A stretch of DNA of 64,000 bases, from contig NC_088298.1 in the NCBI RefSeq assembly GCF_032854445.1, positions 7,305,504-7,369,503 on the forward strand, in the 5' to 3' direction. The notes beneath the pieces were generated by a model. That model ran no database searches and was not told where the DNA came from. It worked only from the letters and a program-made list of their open reading frames with translations. The stretch's first letter is position 1, and every line of letters begins with the position of its first letter. Origin of the DNA: Liolophura sinensis. Lineage: Eukaryota > Mollusca > Polyplacophora > Chitonida > Chitonidae. The position numbers and the translations under genes were made by a program. Shown one piece after another: positions 17,203-61,708 of this stretch.

Positions 17203-17469
17203 GGGGCCTCCGTGGCTCAGTCGGTTAGCGCGCTAGCGCAGCGTAATGACCCAGAAGCCTCTCACCAATGCGGTCGCTGTGAGTTCAAGTCCAGCTCATG
17301 CTGCCTTCCTCTTCGGCCGTACGTGGGAAGGTCTGCCAACAACCTGCGGATGGTCGTGGGTTTCCCCCGGGCTCTGCCCGGTTTCCACCCACCATAATGC
17401 TGGCCGCCGTCGTATAAGTGAAATATTCTTGAGTACGGCGTAAAACACCAATCAAAAAAAAAAATAAAA
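17203..17469 (+). mobile_element. tRNA-derived SINE, copy 2
   Basis: Full-length and plus-strand. The head is ggggcctccgtggctcagtc with A box tggctcagtcgg and B box gttcaagtcc; the tail is cgtaaaacaccaatc then an A-rich run. The target duplication atcaagtgtctga is perfect (17190-17202 and 17470-17482). It lies inside the non-coding left part of the piggyBac element, making a three-level nest: Tc1, piggyBac, SINE. Confidence 0.95.
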
Positions 17470-31072: not shown

Positions 31073-32995
31073 CCGTAAACCGGGGCTACTTTAGTCCATT
31101 TGTTTCACACATTTGTCCTATCATTCCTTATTTTCTACCAATAGACTTGCTCTGTTGATTGTAATTAAGCAAAACAAAAGTCCAATTAGTAACATGAATT
31201 ACAACGTTTATTTGGTCAATAATGTTGGTCTTTTTTTTTCAAAACAATCTCTGGCCAAAGTAACCCCAGCTTTGGGGATACTTTGGCCGGTGCATTTGTA
31301 TTACCTTCTGAACCCAAAGTAGCCTTTCACTAAGGGCTACAATGGCCTCCACATGCATTTTTAAAAATACAAATACCTGTAAGGCAAGAAAAGAAAAACA
31401 GAGAAATTTTCTAGAAACCAATTAGATCGGAAGACCCGTTATCGTCACAAAGACATGTATACTCTAAGTGTATTGTGTGTCCTCAGAGACATTGTTCCCA
31501 GCCGTTTTAATGGCTCACATCACCAATTCAGTTTACAAGAATGCCGTCAAAACTGCAGCTGAAGCGGAACTGTCCGTGGCGGTTGACATCTGGTTTTGGC
31601 AGAACCCGGACTACTTGATCACTGTCGATGTCATCAACATTCATCTCTTCTGGGTATGCGAAGAGCGACATCTTCCCTGAAACTTTCTGACAGAACTGCA
31701 CCTCCCAGTTTTGGGTATCAGATGCAGCCCTGTGTATGATGTGGCCTACATAATACTTTGATGTAGTTTTCATGGCGTATTTCACCAGAATCCAGTCACC
31801 TCTCTTCAGAACATAATCTGGGTGATCTGCGATGTTATCTTCTGACCCAACGGTTTCATCACAGTCGGAAGTTTCCTCAGCAGACTGTTTGTCCGAGTCA
31901 CTTGATCCGTCCTCCTCATCAGTCTGCCTGCTGATGTCTGCTGCACTTATGCTTTTGCCAGGCTCAACCTCTATTCTACTCCGCTTTTTCGGCTTAGAAG
32001 CTGCAGGCCCTTCTTCTCCGTATCTAATGGCTTTCAACATGTCAATGACGGAATCTGAGACATGCTTCTCCAGATTCGCCACTTTGTCGTCGCTGTCTGT
32101 TTGGTCATTCTCATCAGATGGAAGTCTCTCGAGTATTGCTTGGGGATTGAGAGAATGTGTTCCACACTTCCTAAAACCGGCAACGAGGTTATCCCTTTGC
32201 TGTGGCTCTATTGCTTCCAGTAATTTGGTCAGAAGAGTTGGAAATACATCCTTGTTGACAGCTTGGCTGCGTCTACCTATGCCCTGTTTCCATTCAGTGA
32301 GAATTTTTCTCCACTTGCTCTTCAGGGGTCGAAAGAATGCAACATCTAGAGGCTGACACAGGTGTGTGGAATTGGCCGGGAGGCAAAGAAAGTGAATGTC
32401 CTGCCTCTCGCATTCCTGGAGGACATTGTTGCTGAAATGGCTACTCAAGTTATCTCCAATTATGACCTTTTTGCCAGGTTTCCTTCTTAAAAATGGCACT
32501 GCTACAGTGTTGAACCAGTCTTCAAAGCAGACACCATCAAACCATCCAGATCGTGATCTATTGTAACGAGCATCGTTTGGTATGCCTTGTGTCCATGTGT
32601 CCCACAAGTTTTCAGCCTTGTACCGTACACAACGTATACTGGTAAAAGATCACCTTCTGCATTTCCGGCAAACATCAGTGAAATTGCCCCTTTTCTGCTG
32701 TTAAGAATTCTTTCGGGGTAATTTGCTCCTCTTCTAAACATGCAGAGTTTTTTGCCAGGATCATCCGAGAGATTGGTTTCATCATAGTTTACGATGTTGC
32801 CCGGTGGGACATCTTTCAATGAGTTTTCCAGGTTTTTGAAGTATGTCTTTATTTGGCTAGGATCAACTCCTGCCCGGCTTTGAGAGATGTTCTGGCACAT
32901 GCGCTGTGAAATTACATCCTTGTGTCGCTTGATAAAGGCTGAAGCCCACTCTTGTCCGGGCAGGAGTTTATTAAAGCTAGTACTTGAGAATCTGT
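31073..32995 (-). pseudogene. pogo-like transposase (DDE_1), frameshifted
   Basis: The outer end ccgtaaaccggggctac follows TA at 31071. The coding region on the minus strand covers about 32995 to 31528. It begins in the CENP-B/HTH-linker region (LLPGQEWASAFIKRHKDVI). It then has VNYDETNLSDDPGKKLC (first D), shifts frame near 32600, and continues with VIIGDNLSSHFSNNV (second D) and HLCQPLDVAFFRPLKSKW (third D). It ends with an acidic linker and a Tudor-like module (LKRGDWILVKYAMK, then VQFCQ). The N-terminal DNA-binding domain is missing. Frameshifts near 32600 and at the 5' edge make it non-functional. It is the same broad family as the fragments at 6117 and 10957. Confidence 0.83.
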
Positions 32996-38694: not shown

Positions 38695-39710
38695 CTATTG
38701 CATTACCTCAGATTGGGGTAATTTACGTTTTGTACCAATGCAGCCCGATGTGCTTGTCGCAGCTTTATGGGGGCCATATGGCTGTACCCACGGACGCCGT
38801 TCACATTTGCCAAACCATTTCGTAACAGCTTTATCTGCATCAAAATTCATTGGCTCTGGGCCATCGTGTATAATGCGCAAAAGCTGTTCTACCCTTTTCT
38901 CACCTAAAGAATTGCGCCAATCTGAGTGTATTCTATTCATACACGAGAAACCTCTTTCAACTACAGCATTACTCACTGGTATAACTAACAAATTTCAATG
39001 ACAGCAAGTATGTTCTCAAGTGAGGATTTCTTTGAACTGCAAAACAGTTTTGCTAATGTTCCTCGATACTCAAGGGCATGTAACCCAGTCGTGACTACTA
39101 ATTCTTTAAGGTCATCCCATTCAGTGGGTATTTTAAGCAAGTCAATCTCATTTGACACAAGAACTTGTTCAAAGTGTTTTGTCACAGTTTCAATAGCAGA
39201 ATTCCCAAAGTCAGAAAATGTGTTGCTGTCCTTAGTTGGATACAGTTCAGTGTCCAAAATAGTTACAGCACTAGAGAACAAATTTGACTCCACAATATTG
39301 TCAAATCTCTGCTGGAAGGAGTCAAACACCGATTGGATGATGCGGCCATTGTTACTTTCCAACAACTGGCGAGCTCTCTGCACATGCGTCAGTGGAATTT
39401 CATTGTATTTGTAGGCATCATTGTGTTCATCTGCATTAGTTGTGTAGCCTCGAGTTTGTGTACGATTTGTCAGTGGATCAGTGTACTGCTTTAAGTTCTT
39501 GAAGAAGAAGCTCACCCTACCTTTAGAAATGAGCAAATCATCCGAGTTTATCATTTCATTTAAAATTCTATAAAATTTCTTGATAGATTTAACTGCTGAG
39601 ACAATGTCAATATCTTCTTTCTGGAACTGCTGACTTAATACAGCAGCAGGGGTGAGTATCTCCAGATAGTAGGAAATGAACAGTGGGAACTTTGCATCCC
39701 TGAAATTGTC
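38695..39710 (-). pseudogene. hAT-5bp transposase, C-terminal part
   Basis: Continues the frame interrupted at 52983. From the 7-bp duplication it reads NFRDAKFPLFISYYLEILTP, runs through INSDDLLISKGRVSFFFK, and ends with the dimerisation block, out of frame by a shift near 38995: LLVIPVSNAVVERGFSCMNR, followed by a cysteine/proline-rich tail. The join KGYY-DNFRDAK across the nested insert is seamless. Related to hAT-3 (same ZNF862-like style). Confidence 0.87.
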
Positions 39711-40517
39711 ATAATACTAGGGAGTTCAGCAAAAATTTTATTTTTGTTATTTCACTGAATGACTTCACTCATTACCAAGATGAGGTTCTAAGAAACACAA
39801 AACAGTTTGAATTTTGAAAATCGGTTGAATAGTTCTCTGTGTAGCGGCAGTTATGTCATCGGTTTTGAGTCGTTTTGTTGGAACTTTTCTTACATACTGT
39901 AACACTGTGCCCATGGCACCAAACACCCCCACAAATTAACAAAAACAAAAGAAAAATTGATGGATATCTTTGAATTTTAATCCCATTTTGATGAAAATTC
40001 ACTTCCTATATGAATTTTTCGCTGCGATTTCAAATTTGAATCGAAAAATCGGCATGGGCGAGCGTAAATGGGTTCATTTGCATAAATTTGCATAAATTTG
40101 CATATCAATATGCTCCTACAATTACGTAATATTTACACAGGAATCAGACACCTTAAAGGCAATGAAGTAAAATGAAAACAAATCTATGCAGGAGTCAACC
40201 AATCATTTGATAGACATGTGAACCTCAGAGACAGAGAATAGGGCTCGCGTAATTAACCAAGATGGCGGACAAAAATCCAATATGGCCGACAAAATCCAAT
40301 ATGGCCGCCAAATTTCAAATCACTTGACGATGAACTTTTTATGCTTTGTTATATATCAAATGAAAGCTTATTTCATACACATTGCAAAAACAAATACACC
40401 AAAGGTTGATTTTAACATCCAAAACCAAAAAAACTACCTGACAAGTCTTTTGACCGTGGGTGCAGGATGTGGCGCAAGTCTCCTAAAGATAAACTGCATA
40501 CGGTATAATAATGATTG

Positions 40518-43500
40518 TTAACTCATGTAGGCCTTTTTAAAATAAAGATACAGTTGGTCAATCTGCTTGACATTGTCAACAGACCAAAGTCTAATGTTTT
40601 TGGGTTCACACTTTACTTCAGCAAATGCAAACACTCTCGGAACTGGTTTTCCATCACTAGGGTCTGGGGGCTCAGGCCAAATAAAACTGTCCCCTCGACG
40701 GTGAAGAAAACGGACAGTCATCATGCCATCATCAACAGAATCTACAAAAGCAGGACACCATTCTGTATCAAATGCAACAGCAACATAAGAACCAGAAGCA
40801 AACTGTAAACATGGTAACGGTTCTGGAACTCGAGGTTTCTTAGCAGCATTACTTTTAACTGGAACTTGATGCCTGCGTTTTCGCGACGCGTTTTTTTGTT
40901 GATCGATGTTCACGTGGTCTGGTACATGTAGATGAAATTCAATGTCCACATTCTCACAGATCAACAAAATAAGATTTCGACTAAGTTCATCAATGGTAAG
41001 TTTCTTCTTGTTCACTGTAAATTTTCCTAGGTTCTTATTTGATGTTTTACTCCGGTTTATCCTGTAAGTAATCTGATCTCTGACTGCCTGCATCCTTTTC
41101 ATTTTCCCCTGTATCTGTTTCATCTTCTCTTTCAGCTCTTCCTCTGTCCTCCAGATACCACCATTCACACTGATTCGCACTCTGAGTTGTTCTTCTCGCC
41201 ACATTTGCTTCCGTTCCTTTTCTTCTTTCTGAAGCTTTTTCTCTCTCATCAGTTCTAACTTCTTTCTTCTAGGGGCCTCCGTGGCTCAGTCGGTTAAAGC
41301 GCTAGCGCAGCGTAATGACCCAGGAGTCTCTCACCAATGCGGTCGCTGTGAGTTCAAGTCCAGCTCATGCTGGCTTCCTCTCCGGCCGTACGTGGGAAGG
41401 TCTATCAGCAACCTGCGGATGGTCGTGGGTTTCCCCCGGGCTCTCCCCGGTTTCCACCCACCATAATGCTGGCCGCCGTCGTATAAGTGAAATATTCTTG
41501 AGTACGGCGTAAAACACCAATCAAAAAAAAAAAAAAATCTTTCTTCTAATGTCTCTGTATCGGTCTCTGTCAGCTTTCTTTCTTACAGGGGCTCTTCTAC
41601 GGGCAATTTGAAAATATTTCCTCTTCTTTTCCAGGCTCAACTTCTTAAGATAAACAGATGTTTTGTTTCGCTGGAAACATGATAGGGCTGCCTTTGCAAT
41701 CGTGCTTTTTTGTGGTGCATGCTGAACACACCTGTCAAGATCAGCAAATGCGGACTCTGATACTACATTTGTCAATGGAGCAGATTTTGTCTCCTGCCAC
41801 AGTTTGTCAGATGGTTGATGAAGGAATCCAGTCAGATGATCTGCAAGCTGCCGTTTACACAGAGAAGCCAAATTAGCACATGTGAGTTCTAGGACAGATT
41901 TAGTATGTTTCTGTAGAAGTGGTGTTCCAGGTTCAAATAAACTATTGTAAACGTCATCTTTCTGAAGTAATTCTTCGCTGAAAACTGTTTTCCCATTCAT
42001 CATAGGCGTGGAATCATTGGAGCACTCATCCAGGAAGTTGGTTACCTCTTTCCAAATTTGATTGGTGTCCAGAATGTGCATTCCTTCCTCATTTAACTTT
42101 CGCCACAAAGGGCCAGTAATCATTTTGTCTATAATGCCCAGAGCTCTGCATCCAGCAAGGTTGTGGTCTACTTGAATTTGTTCGAGGATGCATTTTAAAA
42201 GAAAGTTCAGTTTATCATTCGAGTCTGATATGTAACCCCCTCTCAAAAACTCTACAATATCTTGCCTGTGAAAATATGTGGCAGCAGCATCATGAAAAAG
42301 AATATTGAAGCGGTTACCTAGAAATGGAACTAACTTAACAACCTTTTTCAAGCCTTCCATGTGAACAGCAAACTCCTCCCCATATCCAGACTTTTGGTCA
42401 GATTGCCTCTCAGGTCCAGTTGGCAAAGCCTTGCACACTTGATATATCAAATCATATGACCTAGAATTGTTTGTATTGAACCCTGGCCCAAGGTCCTCTC
42501 GTGGAATGTTTCTATCTTGGTATAGTTTGAGCGCTTTCTTTGCTTCCGTGGTCATGTTAACAATTACATGGAGACCGCAGAACAAACTGTTCATGTTGAC
42601 AAGGTCGGTCTTTTCTTCTTCTGTTATATCAGCAGATGAAATAATTTCAGGCAGCATTTGGGATCGCCAATCTTCAAGTGATTTTACGATTTTTTTGTTT
42701 ACAATATGCCGATCAGTCATTATATTTTTCAGTGCAAAAAGTAGTTTTGCCTCCAGTAGTGATTTCTCCTCTGTTGTTGAAGCTACATTTTCAGCTAGAT
42801 GGGACAGAGTCAGTTTCAGAGCATCAAGAACGGATTCCGTGTTGCCACTCACCATTTCCACGATATCAAGAAAAACAGGATTTTCTGACTGAACAGAGAC
42901 TTGGACGCCTGCATATTCTCGTCCCTTCTTTTTAGTGTTGTCTGTATGCAGTGTACTGTCCTCATGTGAAAGGATAACACCCAGAGCTTGCTGTTCTGAT
43001 AATATCTGTGCTTCAACTTGTAAAAGTGATGCTGTGCTTCTGCTAGGAAGTCTTCCGACTGTTGTATTTGTCAAATTGCCAAATACTGATCGAACAACAG
43101 ACTCGCATCTTCCAACACTGCCCCCGTGGGGTTTCCGGGGTGATAAGAATAGGACCTCAGCCCTCTAGGCAAGCTTGTCGTAAAAGTCGACTAACCTAGA
43201 GCTCTCCTGTGTGAGCCCGGTGAATATAATAGGCTCACATCTTCTCGGTTGTGTGAGAGGCAACCGGGGAGCGACCTGTTTGCCGTGGGTTGCGACCCGT
43301 AATCTACGAGGACGGGATCCTGGTGGCTGAGGGTGGGTTGGTCTTGCGAGATCCTCACGCCCAACACTCCGCTTTGGCCCTTACTTGGAGTGAGACGGGA
43401 GGTCGGATGGGCCCGGTCCGATCAATCGGCTTGGTCATGTCTTGCCTCTACGTTGTCCCAATTGCCTCAATAACAGCTTATAGTTTGGCGAACAAATATT

Positions 43501-46500
43501 ATTTCTGAAATATCGTTTGTAGGACTACGTTTTGAGGCGGTGGCTCATGGGTCAATCGAGTAGATTGAATTTAACCTGTTGGTATAAATCAATCTGTTCG
43601 AGTATACCTCATATGGAATCCTTGGTGTCTTTCCTGCTGGGTATCCCCAGGTTCAGACATCGCCCTTGTTGGCACTCCGTGGTGGGTGGGGAACATATGG
43701 GGTGAATTTTATATACATATTGCCATGTCATCTGTAAACCTTAATTCGAATGTTTTAAATCTAAATGCCAGGTCTTCCTCTCAGCCGATTTCAAGCGCTG
43801 ACAAAAAGAGGAAATTAGAGGTTTTGTCGGATTCGGCTGATAACGGACAGGACAGCTGGCCGGCCTTTATGGTTCTCTCAACAAAGAGTGAACAAAAGCC
43901 GGCCTCAAAAATTCATCCATTTGTACTGAAAAGGGCCCTGCAGGGTTCAGCAGGTACATTAAAAAACGTCAAGAAATTACGATCCGGAGACATTCTTATT
44001 GAATGTTTCCGGAAACAACAGTCCATAAATTTATTAGCTTTAAACCAAATAAATGATATTTCTGTGTATACATCCCCCCATAATTCCCTGAACAGCTGTC
44101 AGGGAATTATACGTGACAGGGATCAGGATATCATTGATCTATCAGAAGAAGAGATCTGCACTGAACTGAAGTCACAAGGTGTTACCAGAGTGAAACGCTT
44201 CAATATGAAGAAATCTGGTAACATCATTAAACTAAATACATATCTTCTCACCTTCAACAGTAAATCTATTCCGTCATATATTTACATTGGCCCGTATAGG
44301 GTTGGTGTGGACCTATATATACCTAACCCAACACGTTGTTTCAAGTGTCAAAAGTTTGGCCATGGCAAGGGCCAGTGTAAAAATAAACTGATTTGTTTCC
44401 GGTGCGGCAGCGAGGGTCATGACGGTTTCGACTGCAGCAGCACAGCAATGTGCTGCAATTGTGGTGGAGATCACATGGCCTCCTCTAGGGACTGCCCGCT
44501 TTTTGTAAAAGAAAAACAAATAATCACAATAAAGACTAAAAACAAAATATCATATCAGGAGGCCCGGAAATTAGTCTCCCCTCCTAACATTTCACTGCAG
44601 ACTTCATTTGCCTATGCGGTCAAGCCAGTAGCATCTGTTGCTACTCAAACATCAATGACTTGGCCATTGGAAACCAGAAACCATGTCTTATTTCTGTTGA
44701 ACCTACTGTTCGACCTGCTTTTAATACGTCCTCAACCCAGACTGCCTCAATACAACAGATCAAACCAGCCAATAATACTGACCAACCCGATATTCCTAAA
44801 CCTAGTCAACCTAAAAACAAAAATATGTCCGAAAATAAACCTCAAAATAAAAACAATAAACCTGGTAAACCCAGTGGCCCAACAGAGCGTCCCTCTAAGG
44901 CCACTGGGGACCCTGTCCAAACTTATAATAAATTTGGACCGTTGGAGGACGTTGGTCCTTCAACATCAGATGCGGATGTGATGGATACATCACCCGCACC
45001 AGGGAGATCTAACAGCCGATCTCCCAGGAAGGGTCGTCCACGGTCCAAACATAAAGAAAAATCTCCTATACGTCTCCCTCCGTAATGGCGATATACGACA
45101 AAATTATACAGTGGAATTGTCGAGGCCTTAAGGTCAATTTTATTGAAATAACACAGCTTGTTCAATCATTAAATCCTATAGCCCTGTGTCTTCAGGAAAC
45201 TCATTTGAAGACATCTGACAAAGATAAAATAAATCTTAAAAATTACTCATTATACAGTACGTACTCGAATGAAGAAGATCGAGCTGCAGGCGGCTCCTCT
45301 ATCTTCGTCAATAACAATGTTATTCACAGCCCTGTTGCTCTGGATACAGAGCTTCAGGCTGTGGCCGTTCGTGTTTCACTATGTGAAACAATCACATTAT
45401 GTTCAGTGTATATTCCCCCGAACATTTCTTTGTCAGCTTTGCAGTTACATAATTTAAAAGAACAATTACCCAAACATTTTATACTTATGGGAGATTTTAA
45501 TTCCCATAACCCCCTATGGGGCAGTAACAACATAAATGATAAGGGCAAGATAGTAGAAAACTTCTTATCTAACGAAGAACTGTGTTATTTCAATGATGGT
45601 TCTAATACCTATTTACATCCAGGTAATGGCGCTTATTCTGCTATCGATCTCACTATCACAGATCCATCACTTCTCCCGGATTTTTCTTGGAAGGTGCATG
45701 ACGATCTTTGTGGTAGTCACAATTTTCCTATAATCCTAGAACATAACACTTCTAATTCTTTAGAACGTGTAGCTAGGTGGAAATTCGATAAAGCAGATTG
45801 GATCGCATTTGAGATGTTCTGTGAGGCTGATGTCAGTCCAGAGACTCTCAAAACAGCAGATGATCCAATATTAAAATTTAACGAGCTTGTATTGCGAGCT
45901 GCCGATAGAACTATCCCTAAAACCTCGACAAATCCCAAATCCAAAAGTAAACCCTGGTATGATCAGGACTGTCGCAAAGCCATTAAGGGCCGCAAAAAGG
46001 CCGAGCGAAATTTTAATATATGTCCAACTGATAATAACTTAAACCAGGTTCGTATTTTTCGAGCTAAAGCTCGTCGATTACTCAAGTCCAAGAGACGATC
46101 TTGTTGGCGGAACTTTGTTTCGGGCATTACGTCAAAAACACCCATGCGTAAGGTCTGGAACATGGTTCAGAAACTTAAGGGCAAAAATAATAAAGCAAAA
46201 GTTCAGCATTTAAAAGATGGCGCTAATATATTAACATCTCCATCTGATATAGCCAATAAATTAGCTGAAACAATTTCAACGAAATCTTCTGACGACAACC
46301 TTACTAAAGAATTCCAACATATTAAAAACCAGAAGGAGAAAACCAAATTGCCCTTTTCTTCTAAAAATTTAGAAGATTATAATTATCCTTTTAATATCGA
46401 GGAACTTAAGACTGCATTAAAAAAGGCCCACGATACTGCTTGTGGCCCCGATAATGTATATTATAAGTTTCTGAACCATTTACCACCTGAGCCACTGGAG

Positions 46501-49500
46501 ACTCTCTTGGATTTGCTTAATGATATTTGGATAACTGGTAATTTTCCACCGTCATGGAGGGAGGCGTGTATTATCCCGGTTCCTAAACCGGGTAAGGATC
46601 ATACTGATCTAAATAATTACCGTCCCATAGCTCTTACCAGCTGTGTCTGTAAGACTATGGAACGAATGATTAATGATAGACTTGTTTGGTTTCTTGAAAC
46701 CAACAAGTTACTTTCTAATATACAATGTGGTTTTCGTCAAGGTAGATCCACTATGGATCACCTTGTTCGCTTCGAAACCTTTATACGAGATGGATTCATT
46801 AATAACGAACATGTGGTGTCCATATTTTTTGACCTTGAGAAGGCTTACGACACCACATGGAAATATGGTATTTTAAAGGACCTTTCTGATATGGGTCTTA
46901 AAGGCCGATTACCAATATTTATATCAGAATTTTTATCCGATCGTCAGTTTAAGGTAAGGGTGGGGTCCACTGTTTCTGACTCTTATGAGCAGGAAATGAC
47001 AACACCAACACTATTTAGCATAAAAATTAATAGTTTGGCTAAAAAATTGACATCTGGCACAGAGGGTTTTTTATATGTAGATGATTTCCTGATATGCTAC
47101 CGTGCTAAAATTATGAATAACATCGAGCGGCAACTGCAGCTTTGTCTCAATAACATCGAGAAATGGGCAGTTGCCAATGGTTTTAGATTTTCAACATCTA
47201 AAACCGTCGGTATGCATTTTTGTAATCAACGGAAATTCCATCTTGACCCTGAACTGAATTTTTGTGGTAAACCGGTGAAAATTGTTGGAGAAAATAAATT
47301 TTTAGGGGTTATATTCGATAGAAAATTATCATTTATACCTCATATTAAAATGCTTAAAGCCAAATGTACAAAGGCTCTCGATATAATTAAGGTCGTGTCT
47401 AGCACCGATTGGGGTGCTGACCGATCAGTTTTACTTAATTTATATCGTTCTCTGGTGAGGTCTAAATTGGACTATGGATCCATCATTTACGGTTCCGCTA
47501 GGAAGTCGTATATTAAAATGTTGGATCCTGTTCATCACCAAGGTTTGAGGCTCAGCCTTGGTGCTTTTAGAACCTCACCAGTAGAAAGTTTATACGTGGA
47601 GGCAAACGAGCCTTCTTTATATAACCGACGTATAAAACTTAGCCTTCAATATGCTACAAAGCTTAAAGCTTATCCAACAAACCCTGCCTACGACTGTGTT
47701 TTCAATCCATCATATGTAGACAAATATAATAAATGTTCTAACAAGATCCCTTCGTTCGGTGTTCGTGTTAGGGACCATATTGTGGAAGCCAACATTAAAC
47801 TTGGGGACATAGCTCAGGTGTCTTTCCCGGAGTCCCCACCATGGCTTTTTCCACAACCTAAATTGATATTTGATCTACGTAAATATAATAAATCAAATAC
47901 AAATCCTCTTATAATTCAGCAAGGTTTTGCTGAAATTAAGGCTAAATATTCGGATTATAAATTTATATATACTGATGGGTCAAAGGATGGGGATAGGGTT
48001 GCAGCTGCAGCTGTCTTAGGGCAGCGAGTTGCTTCTCTTCGTCTTCCATCCTCGTCTTCGATCTTTTCTGCAGAGGCCAGGGCTATACTCCTGGCCTTAT
48101 TATATGTCTCTTCTGGGCATGCTCAGAGTTCTGTGATATGTAGCGACTCGCTTTCCAGCCTTTTGGCAATACAGAATAATAAATTTAAAAATCCGTTGAT
48201 CTTCGAAATATTAGCCATACACCGAAAACTAATTAAAAGAGTTAAAGATATCCTATTCTGTTGGATACCAAGTCATGCTGGTATCCATGGAAACACAGTC
48301 GTGGACATGGAGGCAAAAGCTGCTCTTACTAAACCTTTGTCGAAAGTTAAAATACCATATAATGATTTTAAGTCTAATATTCTTAAATATATTCGTCGCC
48401 TTTGGCAGGGTGAATGGGATCTGCAGGTTTACAATAAACTGCATGTCATTCATCCTGTCATTGGCTTTAATTCATATACACTTGATTTGTCTCGTAGAGA
48501 CCAAGTCGTTTTAACCAGATGCCGTATTGGACATTCTCGTCTAACACACAATTTCATCTTGGATGGGAGCAGCGCTCCCGAGTGTGTTGGATGTGATACT
48601 CAATATGGCATCAAACATATTCTGTTTGACTGTGTAGACTTTGCCCATGTTCGGCAAAGGTTCTACACAGTCAACTCTATATATGATTTATTTGACAGCA
48701 TCGCTGGCGATGTTGTCATAAATTATATAAAGGCCATTGGCCTATATCATAAAATATAAATTTTAATCGTCATAAATATCTATATATAAACAGTTATATA
48801 CATATAGATTGGTACATGTAATATATAACCCTGGTTTTCGAGTTTTAACTCTTATTTTTTCTTTTATGCGATTTTAATCATGTCTGTACTTTTTGTTTTA
48901 CTTTTGGTGTTTATATTATCATATCGAAAACCTTAACCGTCTCTTGTTTTCACCTTGTTCTCGCCACGATATGGCTGAAATATTGCCGATGTGGCGTAAA
49001 GCCATAATCATTCATTCATTCATTCATTCTTCCAACACTGACACCCATGGACAATAAATCTATGTAGCATTGGCGAATGTTGTCATCATATCTATTCCCA
49101 GAAAATGTTTCCAGTTGTGTCGTTTTGTCTACAAGATCTTCAATTTGCTCTTTCAATGTTTCATTTTCTGTTTCTAACTCTTCAATCTTAGCCAAAGAGA
49201 GTGCATCTGGTCGTAATCCATCTTCTTTAAGTTTGATACATCTGTTGTAGTAATGAGAAGCTTGCTTTTGTGCATTCAGTTTTTTTCTCTCTGCTGTGTT
49301 CAGGCTTTCCTTCGAATTCATGTTTTCACGATTCAGTTCAACATTAATGGCAGACAGTTTTTCAATATGTTTGTCTCTGGTTGCAATTCGTTTGTTAACA
49401 TTCCTGGTTGAGAAAGATGATCGAAGTTCACTCAGTTGTTGTTTCAGTTTCTTATGCTGTTTTGCCATTTTAGTGAGTTCAAATAGTCGTTGGTTTTGTT

Positions 49501-51926
49501 TGTAAACTGTGTGCTCTAAAACACAATTCTTGTCATAAGCACTCTTTAAAGTATCAGATAATTCTTTTAATTTCTGTTTCAGGTCTTGATACAGTTCAAC
49601 AACATCATTTTCTGTGTCACTGTGATCCGATGTCTGTCCAGCTGCCTGCTCAACAACCTGCACAGAGACAGGGGGACGGCACTGCTCCTCTAAAAAAATG
49701 GCCGATGACTTTTTCCTCTTGCGAAGGAAGAGCCTATTACACTGGCTAATCAATGAAGTGGTATCAACATCCTCTGGAGATAGTCCCAGCATTTCGATAA
49801 CCCACTTGTGTAAATATTTCCAGGATAACTGTCGTACACGTATGAATGATCTCAAGGAGAGGATATGTCCGATAGTTGGAGTGCACCTTGGCAGTGAGCC
49901 GTTTAGTAGCTGATCTTCAGAAAAGCCAGCAACCTTCACATCAGATGGGTATATTGATGAAATAATTTCTGTTTGACTGTCCGGATGACTGTTCAGATAT
50001 TTTTTCACTTTTCGAGTAAGGTTACTGATTTTGTTAGGCAGTTCAATTGTGGAGTCTGTTATGTATGACTATTTAACGTCTTCATGTACTGTTAGTCTGC
50101 GGACCTTTGTGTTATATGTTATAAGCATAACAGGCCCTGTTATATATGTACAGCGCGGACCTGGCCGAAAGCACCTTGTTCAAGGCTCTGTTTATTTAAC
50201 TGGCTGTTCATTGGCTGTTAAACTCTGTGGTTAAAATAGTTGAATCCACCTGGCACGTATATAAGCCGTGTTTTCTGTGCAGAGGGGAGGTATTTTTGCT
50301 GCATCCACTGGGAGCCAGGAGAGTGTGAGACGCTCTCGTATCGAGTCCATTATTTTGATATGAGCTGGTGATGCCAGTTTCATTTGGGAGGACAGTTTTT
50401 TATGCCGGCACCGTTTGTGTACCACAGTAGTACTGATGTCTGATTTATGTGAATTTCTGCGGAAGTCACGTTTATTGGTGTTCGGATCTTTATTATGATT
50501 ATACAGTGTGGACTGTGTAATTTGTTTAACACGCTGACCTCACCTGACCGACAAGGTCGTCAAGGACTCTAAACTGAAGTTTTCAGTTTTGCAAAGGACG
50601 TTCGTTCTGCCACAAGGTGACATTACTCTACGTCTCTGAACGGCTCGTTTGTGAGCTTCTGCGGGAGCTGTGACTGATCTGAAGTGGATTATACCTCCAT
50701 GCCTGTATTTACCCTGTGTTGTGCTCTGCGGGTGTGACGTCATTCAAAGGCTTGACTGTTCCAGTTCTGTGTAACCTGTGTTCGTGTTCGCTAACCTGGC
50801 GAAGTACCTGTCTAGGACAATTTGTGACTTGTGTGAATTGTGTGTTTATCCCATGGTCTTTACGTTGGATTTCCTGGAATACATTCCTTGGGATGCAAAG
50901 GTGAACTGGAAACTTGTAAAGACCGGTAATACTGATGTGTATGTTGTTGTTGTTGTTGAACTGTCTGTAAAACTGTACGTCTCATTTTATATATAAAGCA
51001 TTGTTTACATTGTAATATTGAGTCACTGAGTCTGTTTTCTGTTGCCGTTTTCAATACCGTAACAAGTCAAAAAGTTTTAATAAAGGGGGCAAATTGTTCT
51101 GAATGTTGATTCCTCTTGTCTCCAGCCTCAGTAATGCTTTGGTATACAGTCCATAGGTTATTGGAACATCTATCTTGTTAGCCAGGTCGGGTGGTAGCTG
51201 AGGGCCTTCCTGCATATGCTCGAAATATTCACCCAGGAGAGTATCTAAAACAGAAATAAAATATATTAAGAAGTACATGTTTTTGTAATTTATTCAATAC
51301 ACATTTATTAAGTAAAGATTGTTGGTTTACATTATGTTTCTATACTGTGATGAGCCTGAGGCGATCTCAATTGAGCAGAAACCTTGGCAAGGGTAAATGG
51401 CTACGAACCCGTAACAAGTTTACTTTTATGTATGCCATCCACTGCCAAATAAGTAATAGTTCGACAGCGCACAACGAGGGTTATCACAGGATAGACGGCG
51501 AGCGAAGCGAGTCGATCTATTCTGTGATGACCCCAGCCACACCCAGCGATACGGATAATCCAATCAGTTTCTCTTTTGCACGTGCTGTCTAGACAGGGCG
51601 TGACCTGCAGTTATGTCACAAGGTTGAATAAGTGTAATTTGCACACATCGCAAGATAGATAGCAGTAGTACTGGACAGCCATTGGTCGAGCGATGAGTGT
51701 TGCGGTCTAAATATGGGGAAGTAGTTCAGAACTATTTTTTCTGCCAGTGGTTTACCCCAAGGATCATGGGGGCATAACAAGTCCCAACGGTGTTATGTAG
51801 AATAAGGGAAATAATTATATTCCTTAGAATATGGCGCAAGTTACTTGAGAGACCTTTTGGTGAATAAATGTATATGCGCATACCAATATCTGAAACTGAG
51901 TCACACAGCTCTTCTTCATCTGCCAT
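40518..51926 (-). CDS. Putative transposase of the unclassified transposon, 1186 codons with three inserts
   Basis: Exon 1 is 51926-51884 (MADEEELCDSVSDI; donor ATTG|GTATGC). Exon 2 starts at 51244 after tttctgttttag (DTLLGEYFEHMQEGPQ) and is broken by the solo LTR, the retrotransposon and SINE copy 3. At each site the frame resumes exactly when the insert and one duplication copy are ignored; the total is 3561 bases including the stop, with no internal stop. Order: N-terminal helical part, long coiled coil (KLKQQLSELRSSF and onward), central domain with LHTDNTKKKG, KNIMTDRHIVNKK, NSLFCGLHVIVNM and VVSESAFADLDRC, a basic helix, and a C-terminal Tudor-like module (FASGSYVAVAFDTEW, VRFLHRRGDSFIWPE). 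The D, D and E in the first, second and fourth motifs may be a DDE triad (inference). I remember similar proteins being left uncharacterised in invertebrates. Confidence 0.82.
41272..41537 (+). mobile_element. tRNA-derived SINE, copy 3
   Basis: Full-length, plus-strand, same family as copies 1 and 2. Head ggggcctccgtggctcagtc, B box gttcaagtcc, tail cgtaaaacaccaatc plus poly-A. The target duplication is tctttcttcta (41261-41271 and about 41538-41548). It was inserted into the coding exon of the unclassified transposon; removing it rejoins DIRRK with KLELMREKK in frame. Confidence 0.95.
43725..45085 (+). pseudogene. Retrotransposon ORF1, copy A (frameshifted)
   Basis: The start is set by comparison with copy B (MSSVNLNSNVLNLN; an in-frame ATG at 43686 lies in the leader). 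The protein has a basic N-terminal region, an esterase-free nucleic-acid-binding middle, and three zinc knuckles: CFKCQKFGHGKGQC, CFRCGSEGHDGFDC and CCNCGGDHMASSRDC. Copy A lacks one C near 44664 (tggccattgg against tggcccattgg in copy B). This moves the proline/asparagine-rich tail into another frame, where it is preserved to the stop at 45083-45085. ORF1 proteins of this type package the RNA. Confidence 0.88.
45085..48759 (+). CDS. Retrotransposon ORF2, copy A (open but catalytically damaged)
   Basis: 1224 codons without a stop; the ATG overlaps the ORF1 stop as TAATG. Domains: AP-type endonuclease (IIQWNCRGLK, LCLQETHLK, MGDFNSHNPLWGS), reverse transcriptase (PKPGKDHTDLNNYRPIALTS, FFDLEKAYDTTW, YVDDFLICY), RNase H (FIYTDGSKDG, SAEARAILLAL, CSDSLSSLLA, WIPSHAGIHGNT) and a C-terminal CCHC-like piece (CVGCDTQYGIKHILFDC). 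Two lesions remove key residues. The endonuclease SDHFP is SHNFP here (45716-45727), losing the catalytic D and H. A 21-bp in-frame deletion near 47000 removes most of the RT motif GVPQGSILSP. It is therefore open but very likely dead. Confidence 0.92.
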   Translation: MAIYDKIIQWNCRGLKVNFIEITQLVQSLNPIALCLQETHLKTSDKDKINLKNYSLYSTYSNEEDRAAGGSSIFVNNNVIHSPVALDTELQAVAVRVSLCETITLCSVYIPPNISLSALQLHNLKEQLPKHFILMGDFNSHNPLWGSNNINDKGKIVENFLSNEELCYFNDGSNTYLHPGNGAYSAIDLTITDPSLLPDFSWKVHDDLCGSHNFPIILEHNTSNSLERVARWKFDKADWIAFEMFCEADVSPETLKTADDPILKFNELVLRAADRTIPKTSTNPKSKSKPWYDQDCRKAIKGRKKAERNFNICPTDNNLNQVRIFRAKARRLLKSKRRSCWRNFVSGITSKTPMRKVWNMVQKLKGKNNKAKVQHLKDGANILTSPSDIANKLAETISTKSSDDNLTKEFQHIKNQKEKTKLPFSSKNLEDYNYPFNIEELKTALKKAHDTACGPDNVYYKFLNHLPPEPLETLLDLLNDIWITGNFPPSWREACIIPVPKPGKDHTDLNNYRPIALTSCVCKTMERMINDRLVWFLETNKLLSNIQCGFRQGRSTMDHLVRFETFIRDGFINNEHVVSIFFDLEKAYDTTWKYGILKDLSDMGLKGRLPIFISEFLSDRQFKVRVGSTVSDSYEQEMTTPTLFSIKINSLAKKLTSGTEGFLYVDDFLICYRAKIMNNIERQLQLCLNNIEKWAVANGFRFSTSKTVGMHFCNQRKFHLDPELNFCGKPVKIVGENKFLGVIFDRKLSFIPHIKMLKAKCTKALDIIKVVSSTDWGADRSVLLNLYRSLVRSKLDYGSIIYGSARKSYIKMLDPVHHQGLRLSLGAFRTSPVESLYVEANEPSLYNRRIKLSLQYATKLKAYPTNPAYDCVFNPSYVDKYNKCSNKIPSFGVRVRDHIVEANIKLGDIAQVSFPESPPWLFPQPKLIFDLRKYNKSNTNPLIIQQGFAEIKAKYSDYKFIYTDGSKDGDRVAAAAVLGQRVASLRLPSSSSIFSAEARAILLALLYVSSGHAQSSVICSDSLSSLLAIQNNKFKNPLIFEILAIHRKLIKRVKDILFCWIPSHAGIHGNTVVDMEAKAALTKPLSKVKIPYNDFKSNILKYIRRLWQGEWDLQVYNKLHVIHPVIGFNSYTLDLSRRDQVVLTRCRIGHSRLTHNFILDGSSAPECVGCDTQYGIKHILFDCVDFAHVRQRFYTVNSIYDLFDSIAGDVVINYIKAIGLYHKI
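50057..51064 (+). mobile_element. Solo LTR
   Basis: 1008 bp beginning TGTTATG and ending CGTAACA (TG...CA with a 5-bp inverted end), with a 4-bp target duplication AGTC (50053-50056 and 51065-51068). A TATA-like cgtatataagccg near 50256 lies before a plausible start of transcription, and a tatataaagc sequence near 50990 may serve polyadenylation, both in plus orientation. There is no internal retroelement sequence, so it is the product of LTR-LTR recombination. It sits in the coding exon of the unclassified transposon, which rejoins as LLKLF-DSTIEL in frame. The clade cannot be told from an LTR alone; a 4-bp duplication suits Gypsy-type elements. Confidence 0.85.
51479..51532. repeat. Small fold-back repeat
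   Basis: gggttatcacaggatagac faces gtcgatctattctgtgatga across a cgagcgaagcgag core, forming an imperfect hairpin in the intron of the unclassified transposon. It shares the gttatc-type ends and alternating purine core with the fold-back at 30836, so it may be a MITE remnant. Confidence 0.4.
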
Positions 51927-52962
51927 GATTCAGGCCACTATGAGGTAGGTTATCTGTGTGAAAACTAGAACAAAAAATAAACAATTTAATGGTACAGAAG
52001 AAAAAAGGTTTAAACAACCTGACACCCTCTCATAACATGACCAATAACTTAGGTATGAACACACTATAAACTCCTTAATTTCATTCCTTGAATCTATTCG
52101 CATGTCGATCGTAACCAGTCAATCGTCAAGCATAACCACGCCCAATGTTAAAAAACACTGGGCACACCGAGGAAGGCTATGAAGAAGTTATCAATAATTT
52201 TTATTTTGAACTGAAAACATTGCCGATCGGACAGCACAGATAACATGGTGTTGTTGTTGTTTTAGCCGAAGCTACTGGGAACGGGGTGTTTTGGCCAAGC
52301 ATTTTGATTTACAAATTCAGAACGAGGCCAACGCTAATGTAGGCGGTTAGGAACAAGGTGATAAGAATGAAACCGAGACTGTAACAAATGGCTGCCACGG
52401 AAAAACACCGAAGCAAAAATCGGAAAATTACACATGAGCCAAGAAGAAAAAAGTCGAAGATTGCCAGTTTACAGCCACATTGATGATGGGACTTACCTCT
52501 CATCGCCACCAATTCCAGAATCCGGCGTCTGCTGTTGTTGCGGACCCATCGGAAGGCCATATTCGCCTTTTGGAGCCCATGCCCTCACGTGTTTGACGAA
52601 TTGGCAGGTATCACGATAAACTACGAGATCCCAACTTTATAACCAAAGCATTTTAAGACGGATATTTCCATTGGCTCATGTGCGAATAGCGCATTGAAAA
52701 CGTAAACACGTTAAAAAAATGGCGCCGTCTCGTTGACTACGCGCCGATCGTCAGGCCATTACGAGAGCTATTTCTCCGTGGTACACGCTGATAAGCGATT
52801 TTTTATTTGTCAGCTACCATTCACAAACACAAGATATTTATAAAGGTACACCAAAACGTAAACACAAACTGAAATAAATGTATTACACTCTCATTAACAG
52901 TCAAATGAAAAGGCCGTGGTATTGGGGTTTTGTAGGCAATTCGTATGGCGGATGCCTGAGAA
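51927..52962. other. 5' flank of the unclassified transposon gene
   Basis: No confident gene. A 61-codon plus-strand frame (52434-52619, MSQEEKSRRLPVYSHIDDGT) and an antisense piece ending AGAG|GTAAGTC at 52494 both exist. Either could be an extra exon or a small second gene of the element, but neither has a recognisable domain. The sequence just upstream of exon 1 should hold the promoter. Confidence 0.35.
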
Positions 52963-52982
52963 GCTGAACTCCCTAATAATAC

Positions 52983-54162
52983 CCTTTGAACTTAACTTGT
53001 TCATCTTTTTTGAACGTATTATCCACGCTCATGTGTTGCAGGTGTTCCATCAACAGACGGTAGTTTTGTGAAACCCACTGTAGAGCGCGAACCTTGTGTT
53101 CTATCCATCTCGTACCACTAGATTTAACAGGTGTACAGGCCGACAGTTCTAAAGCTTCAGCTATTCCCACAAGTTGTCGCACCTTCTTTGGACTCTTATC
53201 ATACATAAGATACAATGTGAGAAGCATGTCCTCTACGTCACTGAACATGACTTGTTTGGAAAGAGAGTCTTTAATACTGAGCTCTAGTCTATGAGAGATA
53301 CAATGAACAGCAACAAGCCATGTCATGCCTTCATTGGTTTTAAATATTGTCTGAATCCCACCTCGATTCCCCATATTTACTGAGGCGCCGTCCATACCCA
53401 TCCCAACAATGTTTCTTAATTTTTTCTGAATTATGTGATCATTGAGTGCACACTTAATTGTCTCAACAAGTCCTGCTGCATTCCCTTGCAGACTAGGTGA
53501 TATTTCTTTCAGTGAAAAAAACCTAACCATTTGACGACCTGTTGTTGGATTGAGAAAAAGTACATAAATAAGCTCTTTCTCTCTATTTCTTACATCTGTA
53601 CTTCCATCAACAAGGAGACTGAAGAATTTGGCTTGGCGCAATGTCTCATTTAATTCATCCTCGTAAATTTCTGCATTGTTTTCAATAAACTCAGCTTACT
53701 TGAGGTCAGTTAAATATGCTTCTCCCAATTCTACTCCATGCTTTTTTTCCATTTTAGCAAATGCCGGAAATTTGGTAAACGATATTTCCTCTTTAGCCAC
53801 AAGAAAAGCAATGCCAAAGAGTTTTTTCATCCGATCTCTATCCTTATTCTTTAGTCGGACCAATGACTGACCGATTACGGATTGGGCTGCTGGAGATTCT
53901 CCATTTTCCCTCAAAATTTTATCTCGTTCAAGCAATTCTACTTTTTTGTGGGGTTCTCCATTTTTATGCGTTGTGGCGGCATCGTGTTTGACGTTTGATG
54001 TACCCGTTATCCACGCCTTCTGGAAATTTCTGATTGAACAGACTTGACGTTCGTACGAAGAACACAGCGAACTTTCGTGACGACTGTTTGTCCTTTTTTG
54101 CGTTCCTGATCAACCACTTCTAACCAGTCAAACCCCCAAGATTTTAAAGTAGACAACTTCAT
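52983..54162 (-). pseudogene. hAT-5bp transposase, N-terminal part
   Basis: Starts at 54162 (MKLSTLKSWGFDWLEVVDQE), shifts frame near 54050 to VCSIRNFQKAWITGTSNVKH (a finger-like C and H pattern seen in ZNF862-type proteins), and continues to KKVELLERDKILRENGE. An in-frame TAA at 53696-53698 is followed by AEFIENNAEIYEDELNETL and the catalytic core FFSLLVDGSTDVRN, GMGMDGASVNMG and VAVHCISHRLELSIKD. It is cut at the ATAATAC duplication by the unclassified transposon, and the frame resumes at 39710. Confidence 0.87.
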
Positions 54163-58013: not shown

Positions 58014-61000
58014 TGTCTTCTTTAGACAAAATTATACAGTGGAATTGTCGAGGTCTTAAGGTAAATTTTATTGAAATAACATAGCTAGTTCAATTACTAA
58101 ATCCTATTGCCCTTTGTCTTCAGGAAACTCACCTGAAGACATCTGACAAAGATAAAATAAATCTTAAAAATTATTCTTTATATAGCACTTATTCAAATGA
58201 AGAAGAGCGAGCTGCAGGCGGCTCCTCGATATTCATAAATAACAGCATTACCCACAGCCCTGTTGTTCTGCATACAGAGCTTCAGGCTGTGGCCGTTCGT
58301 GTTTCACTATGTGAAACAATCACATTATGTTCAGTGTATGTTCCTCCTAGCGTTTCTTTGTCGGCTTTCCAGTTACATAATTTAAAAGAACAATTGCCAA
58401 AACCTTTTATACTTATGGGAGATTTTAATTCCCATAACCCCCTATGGGGCAGTAATAACATAAATAATAAGGGCAAGATAGTTGAAGACTTCTTATCGAA
58501 GGAGGAACTGTGTTATTTCAATGATGGTTCTAATACCTATTTACATCCGGGTAATGGCATTTATTCTGCTATCGATCTCACTATCACAGATCCATCACTT
58601 TTCCTTGATTTTTCTTGGAAGGTGCATGACGATCTTTGTGGTAGTGACCATTTTCCTATAATCCTAGAGCATATCACTTCTAATTCTTTAGAACGTGTAG
58701 CTAGGTGGAAATTCGATAAAGCAGATTGGATCGCATTCGAGATGTTCTGTGAGGCTGATATCACTCCAGAGACTCTCAATGCAGCAGATGATCCAATATT
58801 AAAATTTAACGAGCTGGTTTTACGAGCTGCCGATAGAACTATACCTAAAACTTCGACAAATCCCAAATCCAAAAGCAAACCCTGGTATGATAAGGACTGT
58901 CGCAAAGCCATTAAGGACCGCAAAAAGGCCGAGCGAAACTTTAATATTTGTCCTACTGATAACAACTTAAACCAGGTTCGTATTTTTAGAGCTAAGGCTC
59001 GCCGATTACTCAAGTCCAAGAGACGATCTTGTTGGCGGAACTTTGTTTCGGGCATTACGTCAAAAACACCCATGCGTAAGGTCTGGAACATGGTTCAGAA
59101 ACTTAAGGGCAAAAATAATAGAGCAAAAGTTCAGCATTTAAAAGATGGAGATAATATAATAACTTCTCCACCCGATATAGCTAATAAACTAGCTGAAACA
59201 ATCTCAAAGAAATCTTCTTCTGAGAATTATACTAAAGAATTCCAACGTATTAAAAACCAGAAGGAGAAAATTAAATTGCCCTTTTCTTCTAAGAATTTAG
59301 AAGATTATAATAATCCTTTTAATATCGATGAACTTAAGACTGCATTAAAAAAGGCCCACGATACTGCTTGTGGTCCTGATAATGTATATTATAAGTTTCT
59401 CAACCATTTACCACCTGAGCCACTGGAGACTCTCTTGGATTTGATTAATGATATTTGGATAACTGGTAATTTTCCACCATCATGGAGGGAGGCGTGTATT
59501 ATCCCGGTTCCCAAACCGGGTAAGGATCATACTGATCCAAATAATTACCGTCCCATAGCTCTTACCAGCTGTGTCTGTAAGACTATGGAACGGATAATTA
59601 ATGATAGACTTGTTTGGTTTCTTGAAACCAACAAGCTTTTATCTAATATTCAATGCGGTTTTCGGCAAGGTAGATCTACCATGGATCACCTTGTTCGATT
59701 CGAAACTTTTATTCGCGATGGCTTCATCAATAATGAACATGTGGTGTCCATATTTTTTGACCTTGAAAAGGCCTACGACACCACATGGAAATATGGTATT
59801 TTAAAAAATCTCGCGAATATGGGTCTAAAAGGTCGCTTACCTATATTTATATCCAAATTTTTATCCGATCGTCAGTTTAAGGTACGGGTTGGGTCCACTC
59901 TTTCTGACTCTTATGAGCAAGAAATGGGTGTACCCCAGGGCAGCATTCTATCACCAACTCTGTTCAGCATAAAAATAAATAGCCTAGCAAAAACATTAAC
60001 ATCTGGCACAGAGGGTTCTTTATACGTGGATGATTTCCTTATATGCTACCGAGCTAAGAATATGAATAATATCGAACGTCAGTTGCAGCTTTGTCTCAAT
60101 AAGATCGAGAAATGGGCAACTGAAAACGGTTTTAGATTTTCAACGTCTAAAACCGTCGGTATGCATTTTTGTAATAAACGGAAACTTCATCTTGACCCTG
60201 AGCTAAATTTTTGTGGTGAACAGGTTAAAATTGTTGGAGAAACAAAATTTTTAGGTATAATATTTGATAGTAAACTATCTTTTATACCTCATATTAAAAT
60301 GCTTAAAGCTAAATGTACAAAGGCTCTCGATATAATTAAGGTCGTGTCTAGCACCGATTGGGGTGCTGACCGATCAGTTTTACTTAATTTATATCGTTCT
60401 CTGGTGAGGTCTAAATTGGACTATGGATCCATCATTTACGGTTCCGCTAGGAAGTCGTACATTAAAATGTTGGATCCTGTTCATCACCAAGGTTTGAGGC
60501 TCAGCCTTGGTGCTTTTAGAACCTCACCAGTAGAAAGTTTATACGTGGAGGCAAATGAGCCTTCCTTATACAACCGACGTATTAAACTTAGTCTTCAATA
60601 TACTACAAAGCTTAAAGCACATCCAACAAACCCTGCCTACGACTGTGTTTTCAATCCATTATATGTAGACAAATATATTAAATGTCCTAACAAGATCCCT
60701 TCGTTCGGTCTGCGCATACGGGACCATATTGTGGGAGGTAACATCAAGCTGGAGGATATAGCTCCGGTGTCTTTTCCGGAGTCTCCTCCATGGCTTCTCC
60801 CACAAACTAAACTAATATTTGATCTACGTAAATATAATAAATCGAATACAAATCCTCTTATAATTCAGCAAGGTTTTGCTGAAATTAAAGCTAATTATAT
60901 GGATTATAAATTTATATATACTGACGGGTCGAAGGATGGGGACAGGGTTGCGACTGCGGCTGTCATGGAGCAGCGAGTCTCTTCCTTTCGTCTTCCATCC

Positions 61001-61708
61001 TCTTCTTCAATATTCTCTGCCGAGGCCAGAGGTATACTCCTGGCCTTATCATATGTTTCTTCTGGGTGTGCCCAGAGGGCAATGATATGTACTGACTCGT
61101 TGTCTTGCCTATTGGCAATACAGAATAATAAATTTAAAAATCCCTTGATCCTTCAAATTTTAGCTATACATAGGAAATTAATTAGAAGAGGTAAAGATAT
61201 TATATTTTGCTGGATACCAAGTCATATTGGTATCCATGGAAACACAGTCGCAGACAGGGAGGCGAAAGCTGCCCTAAATAAACCCATATCTAAGATAAAA
61301 ATCCCTTATACTGACATGAAGTGCAATATTCTTAAATATATTCGTGGCCTTTGGCAGGGTGAATGGAACTTGCAGGTCCATAATAAACTGCATGCCATTC
61401 ATCCGGTCATTGGCTATAATTCATATACATTTGATATGTCTCGTAGAGACCAAGTCGTTTTAACCAGATGCCGTATTGGACATTCTCATCTGACACACAA
61501 TTTCATCTTGGATGGGAGCAGTGCTCCCGAGTGTGTTGGATGTGATGCTCAATATGGCATCAAACATATTCTGGTTGACTGTGTGGACTTTGCCCACGTT
61601 CGGCAGAGATTCTACACGGTCAACTCTATATATGATTTATTTGACAGCATCGCTGGCGATGTTGTCATAAATTTTTTGAAGGCCATTGGTCTATATCATA
61701 AAATATAA
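58013..61708 (+). pseudogene. Retrotransposon ORF2, copy B (one nonsense codon)
   Basis: Starts at 58013 (MSSLDKIIQWNCRGLKVNFI). Codon 24 is TAG (58082-58084) where copy A has CAG; after that the frame stays open for more than 1200 codons. The endonuclease keeps LCLQETHLK, MGDFNSHNPLWGS and CGSDHFPIILE. The RT keeps FFDLEKAYDTTW, GVPQGSILSPTLFS and YVDDFLICY. RNase H keeps TDGSKDG, AEARGILLAL, CTDSLSCLLA and WIPSHIGIHGNTVADREAK. Apart from the one stop, every catalytic motif is present, so this copy is one point mutation from a full coding set. Initiation downstream would remove the N-terminal endonuclease strands. Confidence 0.92.

Follow-up and report, generated by a model that had tools for sequence, protein, structure and literature searches.

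The element, its gene and its insertions

We analysed a stretch of 64,000 nucleotides from the chiton Liolophura sinensis (assembly GCF_032854445.1, contig NC_088298.1, positions 7,305,504 to 7,369,503 of the forward strand), referred to below as the window, and focused on the element at positions 39718-52975, which a preliminary description based on the letters alone had taken for a DNA transposon with a 7-bp duplication. Its features are as follows, where L009, L010 and L011 are three other copies in the genome.

39718..52975, strand not assigned: DNA transposon, 13,258 bp in the window, recognised by its ends, duplications, sister copies and empty sites
39711..39717, plus strand: left 7-bp target site duplication, ATAATAC, present as a single copy in two empty sites
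52976..52982, plus strand: right 7-bp target site duplication, ATAATAC
39718..39730, plus strand: terminal inverted repeat TAGGGAGTTCAGC, 13 bp, also at L009 and L010, and at one end in L011
52963..52975, minus strand: terminal inverted repeat TAGGGAGTTCAGC, 13 bp, exact match
51884..51926, minus strand: exon 1, 43 bp, MADEEELCDSVSDI plus one base, with a GT donor
51065..51244, minus strand: first piece of exon 2, N-terminal region; open, 100% identity to the L009 protein
50057..51064, strand not assigned: probable solo long terminal repeat (LTR) within exon 2 (TGTTATG...CGTAACA, by inspection), duplication AGTC; absent from L009
49028..50056, minus strand: second piece of exon 2, coiled-coil region (by inspection); open, 98.6% identity to the L009 protein
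43121..49027, plus strand: non-LTR retrotransposon within exon 2, duplication TCTTCCAACACTG; absent from L009
41539..43120, minus strand: third piece of exon 2, putative catalytic domain; open, 99.1% identity to the L009 protein
41272..41538, plus strand: short interspersed element (SINE) within exon 2, named by inspection (poly-A tail), duplication CTTTCTTCTA; absent from L009
40518..41271, minus strand: last piece of exon 2, basic region and strand-rich C-terminus; open, 98.0% identity to the L009 protein

Exon 2 spans 51244 to 40518 on the minus strand, and all four of its pieces are open. The layout proposed earlier, a 43-bp first exon followed by one very long second exon, was borne out, as the same exon 1 and splice sites are present, unchanged, in L009, L010 and L011. 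Moreover, L009 and L010 are uninterrupted copies of 6,042 and 6,041 bp, respectively, with a second-exon frame of 1188 codons in both and the same exon 1; computed splicing of exon 1 to exon 2 in L009 yields a protein of 1186 residues. The "intact" 1186-residue protein of the preliminary description therefore holds for the sister copies, whereas in the window the frame is open but cut by three insertions. The largest of these, the non-LTR retrotransposon, has two long open frames of 431 and 1224 residues, with Pfam matches to endonuclease, reverse transcriptase and RNase H in the longer one; as the retrotransposon lies inside the transposon, it was inserted later. The starting bases of the SINE at 41272 recur at 17203 in the window.

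The window contains two matches to TAGGGAGTTCAGC at up to two mismatches, and these are the two ends of the element. The chance expectation at two mismatches is 0.91, so that the window ends by themselves prove little. What takes the element beyond chance is that all three copies in which both ends were located (window, L009 and L010, out of four) carry identical 13-bp ends flanked by three different perfect 7-bp duplications, namely ATAATAC in the window and GTAACAC and ATTTTAG in L009 and L010. In addition, a blind search for inverted ends of 14 bp (two mismatches at most, with duplications of 6-9 bp) recovered precisely this arrangement in L009 and L010; five other loci, one of which (L013) did not contain both its ends, yielded none.

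The insertion could also be read from its empty sites. The flanks in the window, joined with one ATAATAC, form 635 bases that match two uninterrupted loci (C3:7791404 and C4:392609) over 635/635 bases at 99% identity, with 8 and 9 differences, which shows that the element inserted as a unit. Thus, the DNA transposon and the 7-bp duplication first noted are upheld by exact ends, ATAATAC on both sides, sister copies and empty sites. The frame across the joined flanks reads through with no stop. Its two parts lie at 38985-39554 and 52976-53641, and the right part matches hAT frames of the same genome (up to E 7e-30), from which we conclude that the insertion target was a hAT-like gene; this interrupted gene matched no Pfam family at cut-off.

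When the genome was searched with 543 bases of one end and 426 of the other, the same four copies were listed each time, so that it contains at least four. No non-autonomous copies appeared among the matches to these end bases, which does not by itself establish their absence. L009 and L010 share 99.8% identity over 6046 bp, with three base differences in the 1188 codons, all of them in amino-acid-changing codons. As judged from this near-identity the family has moved recently, and the differences are too few to speak to selection. In the fourth copy, L011, one end is kept and the frame is broken; the terminal 239 bases of the other side are missing where a different sequence starts, and did not turn up in the 3.9 kb that follow. 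The sequence replacing this end reads by eye like DDE_Tnp_1_7 (piggyBac-type), and its first 192 residues had no Pfam match. L010 begins about 90 bases past a stretch coding for a BTB/POZ domain (L010 281-478, E 3.5e-10); this stretch ends in a splice-donor-like sequence, so that L010 possibly lies within an intron of a host gene. Viral contigs, scanned in a way that detects just close relatives, gave no match, nor did a plasmid search with one protein.

Other transposon genes in the window are a hAT gene at 6949-8637 (just under the Pfam cut-off), a DDE_Tnp_1_7 gene at 18349-19371, a DDE_1 gene at 31531-32607 and a second long interspersed element (LINE) at 58289-61705.

A second lineage and the conserved motifs

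A search of the genome with the catalytic piece returned relatives on contigs C7, C8 and C12, one of which in turn pointed to others on C7 and C11; their identity to the window catalytic piece is 20-28% as aligned once and 20-29% in a separate alignment. (The query pieces 51063-51242 and 41536-43110 each include an edge residue with insert bases.) The two lineages, hereafter family 1 (that of the window element) and family 2, nevertheless align with an hhalign probability of 98.8% (E 7e-17). One relative on C7 (C7:15409011-15417766) has perfect 16-bp inverted ends, TAGGCATGTGACAAAA, and is flanked on both sides by GACAATG. Its left end was set first by comparison with a second copy, on C11, whose similarity to the C7 relative stops within five bases of that end, and the inverted partner was sought afterwards. 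When the flanks of the C7 relative were joined (400 bases), 11 of the 13 listed matches crossed the junction, the other two being its own flanks; eight of these 11 cover 373-400 of the 400 bases, and three have about 30 bases on one side. The three empty sites read at the junction have a single AACAATG, one base off GACAATG. Homologues that never carry terminal repeats had been named beforehand as grounds for abandoning the proposal, and here one relative has both inverted ends and a 7-bp duplication. Altogether, a 7-bp duplication is found in 4/4 scorable insertions from two lineages, with empty sites for two of the insertions, and the ends start with TAGG in both lineages (TAGGC in the second).

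The third piece of exon 2 contains, by its motifs, D (HTDNT), D (MTDR), CxxH (CGLH), GNRFNILFH and E (SESAF), which in the 1186-residue protein fall at D472, D548, C593/H596, near 680 and at E867. When family 1 was aligned with three family-2 sequences, the elements kept in order were T/F-D-N/A-T, T-D-R, C-x-L-H and G-N-R-x-N/H-x-x-F-H, and in one family-2 sequence a glutamate located four residues past N is aligned as well. The C/DxxH motif lies between the second D and the E, as CGLH in family 1 and CHLH in the three aligned family-2 sequences. The candidate acidic motifs pointed out before this analysis are therefore kept in distant relatives. As D, D, CxxH, GNR and E stand in the same order in both lineages, the protein is probably a DDE transposase of the group formed by hAT, P, MuDR, Kolobok and Dada, characterised by C/DxxH.

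Protein-family searches gave it no name. No Pfam family reached cut-off in the four window pieces and seven family proteins, the scope of all Pfam results on the element given below; the best score in the seven proteins was that of DUF6174, with 16.7 bits against a cut-off of 23.8. As controls of the library, DUF4371 was over cut-off in the hAT frame of locus L024, and PF05699 was just under cut-off in the window frame 6949-8637. A sequence search of the PDB with two proteins found nothing for one, and matches of E 0.97 and worse for the other. Together, both lineages form a clade that is named in none of the libraries searched. The earlier statement that the protein matches no named transposase accordingly stands for Pfam and the PDB, but the protein is not free of relatives, given the weak hAT profile match described in the next section. 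The Tudor-like C-terminus suggested previously is weakly indicated, by a single-sequence AlphaFold model of the C-terminal 120 residues that is strand-rich at a pLDDT of 44. Models of such low confidence (pLDDT 38 and 44) give meaningless matches in fold searches.

Among the other relatives, the gene is visibly broken or interrupted in L012, L014 and L022. In L022 there is a single candidate end, TATTGCAACATGCCTA; its best-matching partner in the fetched DNA differs at 4 positions and lacks a matching duplication. A looser scan gave a 3-mismatch end pair in L023, which was taken for chance, and none in L012, L014 and L022. A DDE_Tnp_1_7 (piggyBac-type) gene (L022 1363-3186, E 2.7e-66) separates the two parts of a second-lineage gene. 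Moreover, a further stretch, C4:518474-519082, is 29% identical (E 1.2e-9) to the L022 protein at residues 7-212, which precede its catalytic domain.

Probable kinship to hAT and the rival classifications

To place the element among known transposases, a profile of six family pieces was compared with one of ten hAT frames from the same genome. These were the frames with an open frame of more than 440 residues among 13 candidates, drawn from 5 of 10 cut loci, 6 further regions and two frames (window and L024). The hhalign comparison gave a score of 36.7 (E 0.0019) over 211 columns, aligning each of the two D residues with a hAT D, CxxH with C..H, and GNR with the hAT motif T-R-W/F. None of the 386 completed column shuffles (out of 400) reached 36.7, with a maximum of 23.5; the reversed hAT profile scored 16.6, and the reversed family profile 19.9. 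Of the 16 leave-one-out runs, 14 still scored higher than the best shuffle. Comparisons with MULE, P, pogo, piggyBac and LINE scored 11.7-21.9, each built on one or two sequences, so that depth favours hAT. Based on these profiles, the kinship to hAT is probably real but remote.

Overall, we consider it likely that the element is an autonomous cut-and-paste DNA transposon with an RNase H-like DDE transposase, as deduced from its motifs, that belongs to the C/DxxH group and is closest to hAT. Several results weigh against this reading. Some acidic residues are lost in the broken relatives L012 and L014; the glutamate is supported by the alignment of family 1 with family 2 only, the C-terminal part being unaligned to the E of hAT; and a single-sequence AlphaFold run on the catalytic piece gave a pLDDT of 38 and no usable model. 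Furthermore, no convincing complete end pair was found in L012, L014, L022 and L023, which leaves one distant relative with both ends resolved. As for hAT, the hhalign probability of the match is just 14%, and the signal is lost in two of the 16 leave-one-out runs, when either family 1 (18.5) or the L024 hAT (20.2) is dropped; on its own, family 1 scores 19.5 and family 2 18.5, and each of the ten hAT rows by itself gives 12.6-23.9, values that do not stand clearly above the noise.

The strongest competitor to a new superfamily is a very divergent hAT family with a 7-bp instead of an 8-bp stagger, which would make the new superfamily unneeded; we regard this as rather doubtful, if to be taken seriously. 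hAT elements have short inverted ends starting with YAG, and the TAGGG ends, which we take to be hAT-like, were counted in its favour. The CxxH and R-x motifs are also colinear with hAT in the profile comparison (E 0.0019), which is the best profile match found: the order D, D, CxxH, R-(W/F) and then a candidate E is common to both, as is cut-and-paste movement, and the inverted ends of 13 and 16 bp fall within the 10-25 bp of hAT. On the other hand, hAT transposons are described as having 8-bp duplications, a length of 2.5-5 kb and a conserved dimerisation domain (PMC3942097). Here, the duplication is of 7 bp in all four scorable insertions of the two lineages, and the uninterrupted copies are 6.04 kb long. 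Moreover, Pfam found no hATC (PF05699), DUF4371 or BED finger, even though the library detects DUF4371 in L024. As duplication, length and dimerisation domain all depart from the description, the element was not filed in hAT.

Membership of the P superfamily, as a relative of Galileo, appears very unlikely. In P transposases the coiled coil stands ahead of the catalytic domain, and the same layout is seen here. The TAGG ends presumably differ from P-type ends. Galileo makes 7-bp duplications with the consensus GTAGTAC (PMC2775673), a duplication length shared with our element and one that, taken alone, fits P; by a hand count, both ATAATAC (39711-39717) and GTAACAC (L009 508-514) match this consensus at 5/7 positions, a post hoc observation that may be due to chance. 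The C/DxxH group is likewise common to both, but no match to PF21787, THAP or any other P model was found by Pfam. A comparison with the sole listed PF21787 locus scored 14.7-21.9 over six frames, which is noise, and constitutes a weak test with a single broken copy: no P-type RNase H match other than this locus, L034 (G000:C7:27675328), was listed for the genome, and the locus has two internal stops.

It is highly improbable that the gene is a captured host gene, or a passenger in an element moved by another transposase. In the copies examined, a single long gene occupies the greater part of the element, the relative with 20-29% identity and different ends is also a transposon, and the DDE and CxxH residues are kept.

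That the element is a Dada transposon is scarcely credible, and was rejected. Dada elements do resemble it in having duplications of 6-7 bp, a C/DxxH motif, a long protein and introns (PMC3706591). Nevertheless, the same paper describes them as lacking terminal inverted repeats, places all those with clearly defined ends in small RNA genes, and reports two zinc fingers, an N-terminal CCCC and a C-terminal CCHC (PMC3706591). Our two lineages have perfect inverted ends of 13 and 16 bp; no tRNA genes were found in 8 loci, and no Rfam match at gathering score in 5 loci, which speaks against Dada; and the closest cysteines of the family-1 protein, the one checked, are 7 apart (828 and 835), so that the fingers were not found. 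Kolobok and MuDR share the C/DxxH group with our element and were also rejected, the former because its 4-bp duplications are TTAA (PMC9587614) versus ATAATAC, GTAACAC, ATTTTAG and GACAATG here, and the latter because there was no MULE match in Pfam and a two-row MULE profile (2/8 loci passed the 300-residue cut) stayed in the noise.

Proposed mechanism and significance

The best reading of these results is that both lineages belong to a distinct lineage of transposons, possibly a new superfamily, that probably works like hAT. In such a model, the long coiled coil would pair two transposase proteins, and the 13-bp ends would be bound by the N-terminal or by the basic C-terminal region. The DDE site would then nick the end of the element, which, by analogy with hAT, may be released through a hairpin on the flanking DNA. 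In Kat1, a hAT transposase, mutation of CxxH blocks hairpin formation, and not nicking (PMC4763223). Finally, the free 3' ends would be joined to target strands 7 bp apart, and gap filling would generate the duplication.

Eukaryotic DDE transposons are divided into about 20 superfamilies in a Repbase-style classification (PMC9587614), and the Repbase rule for superfamilies turns on PSI-BLAST convergence with known transposases at < 0.005 (PMC4455052). Against this background, we tentatively suggest, at somewhat less than an even chance, that with these two lineages a new superfamily is described for the first time, one that would be sister to hAT and widely concealed among proteins labelled "uncharacterised"; the preliminary description had suggested that such proteins may occur in corals, anemones and molluscs. 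The superfamily would be marked by inverted ends starting with TAGG, by duplications of 7 bp and by a DDE transposase that has a coiled coil and the series D, D, CxxH, GNR and E. Among the titles and abstract openings found in the literature, none describes such an element, which does not prove its absence from print or from Repbase.

A clade invisible to Pfam would escape Pfam-based annotation, and its proteins would be counted as host genes. Furthermore, the two uninterrupted, near-identical copies make the element directly testable for activity, and an enzyme of hAT-like type that cuts with a 7-bp stagger would reveal how stagger length shifts inside one catalytic group.

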